Positions 37,500 through 46,940 of a stretch of DNA of 64,000 nucleotides are shown here, in pieces. The first letter of the stretch is position 1. Each line of letters opens with the position of its first letter. The stretch is from NCBI RefSeq assembly GCF_040529185.1, contig NZ_CP159510.1, forward strand, positions 682,001 to 746,000, given 5' to 3'. Position numbers and translations under genes: made by a program. The stretch comes from Sporolactobacillus sp. Y61 (lineage in GTDB: Bacteria; Bacillota; Bacilli; Bacillales; Sporolactobacillaceae). The notes under the pieces are model-generated. The model did not search any database. It had not been told where the DNA came from and saw only the letters and a program-made list of their open reading frames with translations.

Positions 37500-37752
37500 T
37501 TTGCACGCCCCTTCGGATTAATGCTTCTTTTTTTTGCCGCGTCAGATGCTTGATCGCCCACTCTCGGCGCATGGCAGCCGATTTATCCGGGAGGGGCTCT
37601 TCGTACACGATGCGCAGCGGTTTATGGCTGCGTGTATATTTGGCCCCTCTGCCGCTCAGATGTAGAGCAAATCTCTTTCGCACATCTGCTGCATAGCCTG
37701 TATAAAAACTTCCATCCCTGCATTCAAGGATATAGACACTGTACGTCTTCAT
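37465..37752 (-). CDS. yazA: GIY-YIG domain protein YazA
   Basis: A 95-residue protein that is only a GIY-YIG endonuclease-type domain (YSVYILECRDGSFYTGYAADVRKRF, with the conserved Glu/Lys helix). Function of the family is unclear. I start at the ATG at 37752; a GTG at 37764 would overlap trmN6 further. It overlaps both trmN6 and rsmI, suggesting a tight operon. Confidence 0.88.
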   Translation of the reverse strand: MKTYSVYILECRDGSFYTGYAADVRKRFALHLSGRGAKYTRSHKPLRIVYEEPLPDKSAAMRREWAIKHLTRQKKEALIRRGVQNGRTDQLSDGS

Positions 37753-38486
37753 TTTTCCGGCCACACATCCTCTGTATAGTGGCCATTCCTGTCGTAAACA
37801 ACGATCGGTGGCAGAACAGTAAGTCCCGGCCGGCCACCTGCCGTCCCTTCTATGAGCAGCATGTTTGCCTGCCTGCCCTTCCGCGGATGGATCATCTGCA
37901 GCTTTTTCGGTTCAATACCTGACTCCTGCATCACAGATAGAATTTCAGCCAGGCGTTCGGGCCGATGAACCATCGCCAGTCTTCCGCCCTGTTTCAGCAG
38001 AAGTGCGGCCGTACGCACCACATCTGTGAGCGTAATCAGAATCTCATGCCGCGCAACCGCCAGATGCGGATTCATTTTCGTATCCCGTGCGGCTTCTTTC
38101 GTAAAGTAAGGGGGATTGCATGTGACGACATCACAGAGGTGCCGGCCCATTTTTTCCGGAAGTTTCTTAGCATCCCCGCAGATAAAATTAACCTGATCTT
38201 CAAGGCAATTCAGTGCCGCGCCGCGAACAGCCAGATCACACACTTCAGGCTGAATTTCAACGCCTGTAATCCGGCCTCGTGTCCTCTGTGAAAGGAGGAA
38301 GGGTACGGCACCATTTCCTGTGCACAGATCAACCAGCCGGCCCTGCCGGATGGGGACATACACAAACCGGGAAAGCAGGACGGAGTCCAGTGAAAACGGA
38401 AAAAGATCATCAGATTGAATAATTTTCAGACGGGTCTGAAACAGAAAATCCACACGCTCATTCTTTTTTCCGGCTTTGCTGTGCAT
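37749..38486 (-). CDS. tRNA adenine-N6 methyltransferase-like YabB/TrmN6
   Basis: A 245-residue SAM-dependent methyltransferase with the TGNGAVPFLLS SAM loop and the NPPYF catalytic motif typical of N6-adenine enzymes. It probably methylates a tRNA adenosine (TrmN6/YabB family); the exact site is not known. I start at the ATG at 38486, with GTGAGGAT upstream. It overlaps yazA by four bases. A structured RNA or spacer lies before it. Confidence 0.88.
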   Translation of the reverse strand: MHSKAGKKNERVDFLFQTRLKIIQSDDLFPFSLDSVLLSRFVYVPIRQGRLVDLCTGNGAVPFLLSQRTRGRITGVEIQPEVCDLAVRGAALNCLEDQVNFICGDAKKLPEKMGRHLCDVVTCNPPYFTKEAARDTKMNPHLAVARHEILITLTDVVRTAALLLKQGGRLAMVHRPERLAEILSVMQESGIEPKKLQMIHPRKGRQANMLLIEGTAGGRPGLTVLPPIVVYDRNGHYTEDVWPEK

Positions 38487-38548
38487 CGGGATCCTCACTC
38501 TTTCCCATTATTTTGTTACGGGTCACAGGCTATTTAATTAAAGCCCGT

Positions 38549-38583
38549 TGGTAAAAAAAACCGCCTGAAACAAAACAGACAGG
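38549..38583 (-). terminator. Terminator of the yabA/ncRNA transcript
   Basis: GCCTG/CAGGC stem with a loop of about 12 bases and an eight-T run on the minus strand; it lies before trmN6, which would then need its own promoter. Confidence 0.8.
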
Positions 38584-38811
38584 CAAGTCGATGGGGTTTA
38601 TCGCATGAACGGGCAGTAAGACCCCCACCTCAGGGTCATGTGGGTAAACAAACAGACCCGGGCGCGGGAGAACCTGCCCACAACGGCCGAATGGAATCAA
38701 CGAACAATCAGTGAGGATGGGCGCAGGCTAAAAAACGAGGGCGTCCTGTGCACCCGAAAAACCGCCACTGATTGAAGTTTCACTCTATTTAGCCGGCCGA
38801 ACGCGGGACCC
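38549..38811 (-). ncRNA. Candidate structured non-coding RNA between yabA and trmN6
   Basis: No gene fits the gap after yabA. On the minus strand the sequence forms ordered stems. P1 is AATCAGTG/CACTGATT (38766-38773 with 38706-38713). P2 is GGGUGCACAGG/CCUGCGCCC (38745-38755 with 38719-38727, one bulge). P3 is GGGCAG/CUGCCC (38674-38679 with 38611-38616). Within P3 two mutually exclusive hairpins, CCCAC/GUGGG or GACCC/GGGUC, are possible. A small CGAU/AUCG hairpin follows, then a canonical terminator. SRP, RNase P and 6S signatures are not seen. It is a candidate only; it could also be an extended leader of trmN6 or a mobile hairpin element. Confidence 0.55.
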
Positions 38812-39159
38812 CTATTTCTTGTTCAGAAACGACAGACAGAACAGGCAGTCTCCGTCCTTACGCACACTGCCGTAATGCAGATTACAGATATGAAACCCTT
38901 CCTTATACAGTCTGGCCAGATTATCATATCCTTCACCCACATCCGGACCCTGTGACCGGGCATCTCCGGAATATTCGGCTACCTGCTGCTTTTTTTCGGA
39001 TTCTATCCGTTTCCGCAGATTACGGTTTTCAAGCGTCAGATTATTATTTTCCTCCAGAAGTGCGGTCAGTTGTGCCTTCAGGTTTCCGAAGTCCACATAA
39101 ACCTGGCCCAGCTGCTCTTCCAAATGACTGACTTGCGAGAAAATGTCCCTTTTCTCCAA
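38812..39159 (-). CDS. yabA: Replication initiation control protein YabA
   Basis: A 115-residue regulator that binds DnaA and DnaN to limit initiation. It has an N-terminal leucine-rich coiled coil (about 1-60) and a C-terminal zinc motif ([19 protein letters not shown], with one H and three C). Family alignment and a GAGGTGG box six bases away favour a TTG start at 39159 rather than the ATG two codons earlier. It follows ricT. Confidence 0.93.
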
Positions 39160-39171
39160 GTTCATCCACCT

Positions 39172-44901: not shown

Positions 44902-45218
44902 AATTATCTGCAGTCATCACTGCTCCTGTTCTCATCATAATACAGATCCGTCCGCAGCAACCCGCACACTTCGTGCGGAATAGCGCAAAAAAGATGCGGG
45001 ATCACGCATATCCCGCATCTTGCTCTTTTCTTGTGCGTCTAGGGGGTGGGGAGCAACTGCCCGCAGCAGCCCGATGGATTCAAATCATTAGAATCGATTC
45101 AGATGCATGTCCACTTTCCCCGCATTAACCTGAACGTGATTCTCTTCACTCCTTCACTATAAAACTTACCTCTTCAATACCTTGCCGGAAAGTATGTTAT
45201 ACTAAACGTAAATTCATC
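44902..45218. other. Spacer before the TPP riboswitch
   Basis: About 300 bases without a gene. It contains a CCGCACACTTCGTGCGG hairpin near 44970, the orphan terminator, and an A/T-rich stretch with a possible -10 (TATACT, 45199-45204) for the plus-strand tenA unit. The -35 is weak. Confidence 0.5.
44985..45030 (-). terminator. Strong hairpin with T-run lacking an upstream gene
   Basis: Perfect 12-bp stem AAGATGCGGGAT/ATCCCGCATCTT (44991-45002, 45010-45021), followed on the minus strand by six T. No minus-strand gene lies just before it; the tenA unit in between is on the plus strand. The plus side also has TCTTTTC, so it may stop transcription from either side. Confidence 0.6.
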
Positions 45219-45317
45219 TGTTAGTCTCGCTGGGGGAGCTTTCATAGCTGAGATCGGTATCGCCGAGACCCTTTGAACCTGAACCAGATCATACTGGCGT
45301 AGGAAAGTGGCTAAACT
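45219..45317 (+). promoter_or_regulatory. TPP (THI-box) riboswitch of tenA
   Basis: The conserved aptamer pieces are present: the CTGAGA core (45248-45253), GACCCTTTGAACCTGA and the ACTGGCGTAGGAA end. P1 may close as GTTAG with CTAAAC. It senses thiamine pyrophosphate. Downstream lies a terminator (45358-45396), and GGAAAGTGG (45302-45310) in the aptamer can pair with the CCACTTTC arm of that terminator. When the ligand is bound the terminator should form; otherwise read-through into tenA occurs. Confidence 0.93.
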
Positions 45318-45357
45318 TGCATCCTATTTTTATATCTACGTTACGATGCATATTTGT

Positions 45358-46143: not shown

Positions 46144-46240
46144 GCCTTCATTTCACGATGGACACCCTTGCCTTTGGCTCGCAGTTCCTACGTTCAAGGC
46201 CTGCAGCGGACTTTCACCACCTGGCTGCCGCCCGACGCAC
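46144..46240 (-). mobile_element. Truncated 5' piece of a group II intron
   Basis: On the minus strand the sequence starts at 46240 with GTGCGTCGGGC, the group II intron 5' signature (GUGYG). It continues through GAAAGTCC, GCAGGC, GGAACTGCGAGCCA and AAGGCAAGGGTGTCCATCGTGA, a conserved domain I stretch. After about 97 bases it breaks off into the tenA 3' side. No reverse transcriptase, domain V or 3' end is seen. It begins one base after a hairpin at the end of the comA-like gene; some bacterial introns (class C) insert beside terminator stems. Inactive remnant. Confidence 0.75.
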
Positions 46241-46241
46241 C

Positions 46242-46280
46242 TTTAATCAGTGGGGGGATGAAGACACCCCACTGATTAAA
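46242..46280 (-). terminator. Hairpin after the comA-like gene
   Basis: Arms 46242-46255 and 46267-46280 form a perfect 14-bp stem (TTTAATCAGTGGGG with its complement), four bases after the stop codon. The expected T tract is missing because the intron piece starts at once. Its stem bases match those of the candidate RNA P1 at 38706-38773. Confidence 0.7.
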
Positions 46281-46283
46281 GGT

Positions 46284-46940
46284 TCACTTTATCCCGGGCT
46301 CCTTGCGGGGGGTAAGCAGAATCCCTTCCCGATTAATCTTCTCCGCGGCTTCCACCCGTGAATGTACACCCAGCTTCTGAAAAATGCCGGTCAGATACTT
46401 TTCTACCGTCCGCTGGCCGATCAGAAGAGACTTCGCAATTTCCCGGTTGGTCTGCCCGCTGATTACGGCAGACATAATATCTTTCTCCAGATGGTTGAAA
46501 TGGACTCTTGTCGCGCTTTCTATGGCCTTCTCACTGATTGCAAGTTTTCTGAAAAGCCACATCGGCATCAGCACTTCATCACGGAGCGCGGCCCGAAGCG
46601 CAGCGACGAGAGATTCAATAGAGGCCGACTTACTGATCACGCCGGACACCCCGCGGTCAACCATTTCTTCAAATAAAGGCTCAATTTCATTTTCATAACC
46701 TGTATATATCAATACTTTAGCTTCCGAATCAAGATCCAGTATCAGATCTGTTGCTTCAAGGCCGTCCATCTGCGGCATATTCAGGTCTATCAAATATAAT
46801 TTAAAATAATGTCTTTTGACTTCAGCAGCCAGATCGCCCGATGGTGGCAGTGCTTCTACGTCAAATCCCGCCGCTTTTAACACCGTTTGCGTCCCTCTTG
46901 CTACAACAGCATGATCATCCATGACTAATACCGATGTCAT
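46284..46940 (-). CDS. ComA-like response regulator (NarL/LuxR type)
   Basis: A 218-residue regulator. The receiver has D8/D9, phospho-acceptor D52 (IDLNMPQMDG), T80 (IYTGYE) and K104 (ISKSAS). A LuxR-type helix-turn-helix is at the end (QTNREIAKSLLIGQRTVEKYLTGI). IYTGYE, and LTGIFQKLGVHSR against LTSIFNKLNVGSR, resemble B. subtilis ComA. The ATG follows GAGGTG. It is the last gene of a three-gene set with two ComP-like kinases. It probably activates target genes on phosphorylation; targets are not in view. Confidence 0.8.
   Translation of the reverse strand: MTSVLVMDDHAVVARGTQTVLKAAGFDVEALPPSGDLAAEVKRHYFKLYLIDLNMPQMDGLEATDLILDLDSEAKVLIYTGYENEIEPLFEEMVDRGVSGVISKSASIESLVAALRAALRDEVLMPMWLFRKLAISEKAIESATRVHFNHLEKDIMSAVISGQTNREIAKSLLIGQRTVEKYLTGIFQKLGVHSRVEAAEKINREGILLTPRKEPGIK

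Follow-up and report, generated by a model that had tools for sequence, protein, structure and literature searches.

The yabA-trmN6 intergenic region

The window, by which we mean the whole 64,000-nt stretch of Sporolactobacillus sp. Y61 DNA that was analysed, carries on its minus strand two neighbouring genes that we take, following the labels of a sequence-only reading, to be yabA and trmN6. The yabA-like gene (38812-39165, gene list) is upstream and the trmN6-like gene (37749-38498, gene list and locus comparison) is downstream, an order kept in 20 of the 20 loci compared. Between them lies an intergenic stretch (38549-38811), considered here on the coding strand (minus) of both genes, for which that reading had proposed a probable structured RNA of about 260 bases. 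The structure was confirmed: the minus strand folded at -95.4 kcal/mol, compared with -82.5 +/- 4.8 in 200 shuffles (z -2.68; a single shuffle did as well). It contains nested stems together with a site resembling a terminator (38582-38561), and the plus strand of 38500-38830 scored similarly (z -2.72). The proposed unit did not hold, since its coordinates mix a repeat copy (38597-38789, minus strand) with flanking DNA and a terminator; the stretch is a composite and not a single RNA gene.

The terminator-like hairpin with its T run (38561-38582, minus strand) is outside the repeat. Similar hairpins were seen by eye at the same place in several genomes of the same genus, and this hairpin is probably the native yabA terminator. 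In 13 other species of the genus the yabA-trmN6 gap ranged from approximately 24 to 266 nt and was 100 nt or less in 11 of them. Judging from the gap sequences, and for these 13 species from a DNA search, only the window's genome (G000) and a second genome of the same species (G212) carry the element among the 20 loci. The gap of approximately 266 nt, in locus L119 of genome G010, holds a different hairpin-rich insert, perhaps belonging to another repeat family.

A dispersed two-hairpin repeat bounded by ATAAA

Searching the window's own genome with 38549-38811 returned 72 matched pieces. The copies in this genome were 69-92% identical to the query, a divergence that does not point to recent activity there. 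With a model built from 31 copies and 150 candidates scored per genome, matches at E 0.001 or better numbered 83 in G000, 78 in G212, 107 in a genome of the same family (G237) and 107 in a genome of another family (G093). At 78-107 matches in each of these four genomes, the repeat makes up a sizeable part of the intergenic DNA. Alignment A1 contained 31 of 47 sequences, truncated copies and copies without recognisable ends being left out. Alignment A3 contained 43 of 48 matches (leaving out L048, L055, L060, the L101 copy at 335 and the L105 copy at 551) together with five copies of G000, and one further comparison of copies used 46.

The repeat is approximately 145-220 nt long, with the consensus ATAAA-GTGAAACTTCAATCAGTGGGGG-loop-CCCCCACTGATTGTTAGTTGAACCAATCGGGCTTTTACGGGCAGTT...CCCCCACC...GGTGGGGG...ACTGCCCGTTAATGCGGG-ATAAA. 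Because the unit, GTGAAAC...GGGATAAA, sits directly 3' of an ATAAA, this motif stands on both sides of it. Among named copies, ATAAA was nearly invariant at 76 five-prime and 72 three-prime ends, and the bases outside it were AT-rich with no clear conservation. No inverse repeat relates the ends ATAAAGTGAAAC and GCGGGATAAA, and the element has no terminal inverted repeats. In some copies, including that of the window, the first loop is enlarged by an extra domain of approximately 35-70 nt. This domain contains a recurring GCACAGGAYGTGC-like motif, which is common to long-form copies of several families (window, approximately 38720-38758; L056, L068 and L048).

The window's long-form copy (38597-38789, minus strand) scored 134.7 bits with model R1 and 90.1 bits with R2, and was also matched in the own-genome search. 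Compared with the family consensus, its 5' boundary motif is degenerate, reading ATAGA in place of ATAAA (38784-38788), and its 3' ATAAA (38597-38601) is preceded by GCG where the family has GCGGG. From the R2 alignment and pair counts, hairpin 1 occupies approximately 38694-38783, including the optional loop domain (approximately 38720-38758, from the alignments), which short-form copies lack, and hairpin 2 occupies approximately 38600-38692, all on the minus strand.

The absence of a known RNA class, which had been judged by eye, was borne out by an Rfam search with the window region and a second copy of the repeat; only weak matches far under the cut-offs were returned, and no model reached its gathering score, among them CsfG, HEARO and group II models to the extent that these are part of Rfam 15. 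A phage collection contained no match to the repeat at E 1e-5. In the open-licence literature we found no description of an ATAAA two-hairpin repeat family, and none is named in the available part of a paper on triplex repeats (PMC4666352).

Covariation of the fold

The predicted fold consists of two adjacent long hairpins that extend almost to both ATAAA motifs. In 48 diverse copies, 43 pairs were formed in 93.0% of cells, a figure biased upward because the structure was derived from the same alignment; structures slid along the alignment paired only 35-47% of cells. Changes on both sides were found in 30 of the 43 pairs, compared with 12.9 in shuffles, and none of 500 shuffles was as high on any of five covariation measures, related copies not being independent in these counts. 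The alignment folded at -91.3 and its column-shuffled versions at -22.4 +/- 3.8 (30 shuffles). A larger set (237 hits, of which 213 were full-length and 208 distinct) showed double Watson-Crick changes in 35 of the 43 pairs. In copies from another order, GAGAAAC...GATC replaces GTGAAAC...GAAC, which by eye is a double change in the outermost helix. Stems of the family covary strongly, and because of this the element can pass for a small RNA under conservation, which is what happened here.

The sequence-only reading had offered a trans-acting RNA, whose C-rich loops would pair with Shine-Dalgarno sequences, or a mobile hairpin element. The first of these is not supported. The long C-runs are strands of stems and have covarying G-rich partners; of the two supposed loops, AAACCCC overlaps the end of the 3' ATAAA and continues into flanking DNA that is not conserved among copies, and GCCCUC sits in the optional loop domain missing from short-form copies. 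The neighbouring genes also vary between copies, and the terminator is outside the repeat. The second fits the dispersed copies, the ATAAA boundaries and the covarying stems, as well as the empty and filled sites and tandem arrays described below.

Stem mispairs on the ATAAA strand favoured G.T (328) over A.C (224), while the matching changes in loops numbered 225 and 308 (208 distinct copies, not independent). This excess is a hint that the ATAAA strand may fold as RNA or as single-stranded DNA. Of 120 copies, 106 had the plus strand as the more stable one; the same held for 101 of 120 shuffles (p 0.04). This is near the composition effect, so that folding energies show little strand preference beyond composition. 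One explanation drawing on these data is that the element moved via RNA and reverse transcription, in the manner of a group II intron or a retron. A fold conserved on one strand and the modest G.T excess would agree with this, but Rfam gave no intron or retron match and the energies add little, and we consider such a route improbable.

The same mispairs and covarying structure might also be expected if the yabA-trmN6 operon had a conserved regulatory RNA, either small or cis-acting, as might the location of the copy on the strand of both genes and upstream of the terminator. This explanation nevertheless appears very improbable, as the element is restricted to one species among the 20 loci, the terminator is not part of the unit, and the approximately 80 copies per genome are next to unrelated genes with no conserved gene context.

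Empty sites, filled sites and arrays

Evidence for insertion was obtained at one site in genus g71, which was read in four of 36 genomes: G116 has one copy, G266 has two, and G221 and G314 have none. The empty site reads TATAAAAA and contains a single ATAAA, while at the filled site the unit, with its own final ATAAA, stands between TATAAA and AA. Two copies also occupy this same site in a named strain (L252). Head-to-tail units share one ATAAA, as seen in arrays at seven loci. Within the species of the window, 10 stretches of G212 were compared, of which nine matched one of the G000 stretches in the comparison; copy number in the array differed in three of the nine, and the differences in these stretches were in array length only, with no empty site. 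By eye, two single-copy alleles resemble chimeras of both units of an array, which points to array collapse by recombination, and not to new insertion, as their probable origin.

Two further arrangements were noted. In Cytobacillus firmus (L270, 2831-3260) an array is interrupted within its third unit, after which comes an apparent inverted piece of the element. In L067, a different dispersed repeat of approximately 230-250 bp (approximately 1263-1506) adjoins the element, and occurs with near 90% identity at many places in G116 and G266.

Distribution among the Bacilli

Within the order, the element was found in 80 of 299 genomes (47 of 116 genera), and in the class-wide sample in 47 of 398 genomes (27 of 145 genera), 33 of these 47 being outside the order. 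Genera named among the matches listed include Neobacillus, Cytobacillus, Peribacillus, Lysinibacillus, Psychrobacillus, Sporosarcina, Niallia, Domibacillus and Terrilactibacillus. The spread is patchy: a DNA search, which was not exhaustive and missed a genome (G017) found later, detected no copy in 13 other species of the window's genus, five of which were also negative with the model, and the same search returned copies in three genomes of other families. Copies in L048, L068 and L103, from genomes of three families, share flanks of approximately 600-950 bp at 86-92% identity, which may reflect either an old common insertion or transfer of a larger piece. An internally deleted copy retaining both ends was present in a 34% GC stretch of a plasmid record filed as Klebsiella grimontii (pNY3A, CP079755.1; L355, 1501-1592), through either contamination or transfer.

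Gene context of the copies

In a sample of 41 copies or arrays, from the 83 model matches in G000, the element lay either between open frames of at least 70 codons or at their ends, two being flagged with a longer overlapping frame. The upstream frame was co-directional in 24 of the 41, and the neighbouring genes were unrelated from copy to copy. The TAA of the target served as the stop of an open frame of at least 100 codons in 19 of 157 copies, compared with 111 of 6428 other ATAAA sites; since these background sites include ones inside genes, selection against gene damage accounts for at least part of the excess. The 5' end of the element, ATAAAGTGA, has stop codons in two frames, so that a gene would be spared when the insertion falls at its stop. 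Among 144 copies with ATAAAGTGA, 18 end a frame of at least 100 codons at the TAA and five do so at the next TGA.

Search for a mobilising enzyme

The search for an enzyme was confined to Y1, TnpB, IS200/IS605 ends, RAYT genes and genes neighbouring the copies, and it yielded no mobiliser. Near 149 copies, 13 protein clusters occurred in at least three loci, and none was recognised by eye as a recombinase. A narrower version of the explanation preferred here would derive the element, as a non-autonomous form, from an IS200/IS605-type (HUH Y1) transposon, or class it as a RAYT-dependent repeat: single-stranded DNA with hairpins near its ends that enters 3' of a fixed short target and has no terminal inverted repeats. 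The hairpins beside both ends, the fixed target kept 5' and the lack of terminal inverted repeats all agree with this, and of the element-bearing genomes searched, all 20 examined for Y1 contained such genes, at least as fragments, while TnpB was present in 13 of 15 (G260 and G080 had no TnpB match).

The remaining comparisons speak against it, and leave it unlikely. Genome G116 contains many copies, yet just two short Y1 fragments. RAYT-like genes were equally frequent in genomes with the element (49 of 80) and without it (126 of 219; p 0.60), showing no association. The ends of repeated IS200/IS605 copies, compared in part of the genomes sampled, were unlike those of the element, and no parent transposon with the same ends was present among the Y1 and TnpB loci examined. 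Of 20 Y1 loci, 15 were inspected, and none of these had a convincing adjacent copy; a copy was within 1.5 kb at two of 30 TnpB loci and one of three further Y1 loci, and one more Y1 locus (L160) shows a 3' end of the element. By a rough hand estimate, this is about the chance level given the copy number. Nor was there a replication-strand bias among 54 listed copies in G000 (26 versus 28) when the origin was taken to lie near 757 kb; the 20 kb beyond the window contain no DnaA motif and the skew suggests an origin further on, so that a few copies could switch sides.

Proposed mode of movement

Taking the copies, boundaries and sites together, 38597-38789 very probably represents a non-autonomous mobile element that has inserted at ATAAA, and on our best reading the element is mobilised in trans in an ATAAA-specific manner. 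An enzyme encoded elsewhere would recognise the folded hairpins, either in cruciform DNA or in a single strand. Through site-specific strand exchange it would join to ATAAA a form consisting of one unit, which may be a circle or a single strand. A resident copy could then offer its 3' ATAAA as a new target, giving arrays, which homologous recombination would collapse. The window's copy would have inserted downstream of the yabA stop codon and ahead of the yabA terminator, and may ride in the yabA 3' UTR with no job of its own. As to the enzyme, we would tentatively name first a site-specific recombinase acting on a circle; an HUH/Y1-type single-strand transposase is possible but would come after it, an enzyme of another kind is less probable again, and RNA-mediated movement is the least probable of the four. 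A site with zero, one or two copies, together with the ATAAA boundaries, makes the mobilising enzyme directly searchable.

Comparison with known elements

Like a classical MITE, the element is short, non-coding, dispersed and mobile, but it has a fixed target and no parent transposon was found among the Y1/TnpB loci; lacking terminal inverted repeats, it does not qualify as a strict MITE. Integron attC sites are folded recombination sites in head-to-tail arrays that grow and shrink. The element is also folded and forms head-to-tail arrays; unlike attC sites, it has no cassette gene and an ATAAA boundary motif, and no linked integrase was noticed. IS200/IS605 derivatives and REP/RAYT repeats share with it the hairpins beside the ends, the lack of inverted terminal repeats and the target kept 5', whereas the element is a larger two-hairpin unit with ATAAA at both ends, and none of our tests linked or associated a Y1 gene with it. 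In the available part of PMC3733652, REP/RAYT repeats are defined by a GTAG or CGTC tag at one end.

A close parallel is bcr1. As described in the available parts of four papers (PMC6542083, PMC2267715, PMC3446304, PMC8725734), bcr1 repeats are structured, intergenic, present in tens of copies per genome, specific to the Bacillus cereus group and linked with the motif TTTAT, and a mobility resembling site-specific recombination has been proposed for them; their length is given as 147-167 bp in the table of PMC2267715. Likened by these descriptions and not by sequence, the two are alike in size, copy number, structure and mobility, and the ATAAA at both ends of the element is the reverse complement of TTTAT. 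Our best reading is that the element would work like the bcr1 repeats. In contrast to bcr1 as described, it spans many other genera (Neobacillus, Cytobacillus, Lysinibacillus and others), and plasmid searches returned no B. cereus-group record among their matches, a weak hint against membership in bcr1. It is conceivable, if rather doubtful, that both belong to a class-wide set of gene-free elements of approximately 150 nt that move by strand exchange of folded two-hairpin DNA at ATAAA, through an undescribed trans-acting enzyme of the Bacilli, with bcr1 as one branch. A stem-loop-bearing intergenic repeat is also listed for a relative, Bacillus halodurans (Bhal-1, 74 bp, 36 copies; PMC2267715), and is like the element in these respects.

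Other features of the window

The window contains a second, degenerate copy of the repeat (46173-46293, minus strand; R2 45.2 bits, E 1.5e-8; also matched by R1). It starts where a response-regulator-like gene (46284-46940, minus strand) ends, and the TGA stop of this gene (46286-46284) falls within the first bases of the element, ATAAAGTGA. A weak match to R1 alone (45027-45120, minus strand; E 1.2e-4), absent with R2 at E 1, may be a remnant of the repeat. An ordinary TPP riboswitch (Rfam, 78.2 bits) is located at 45222-45322 on the plus strand.
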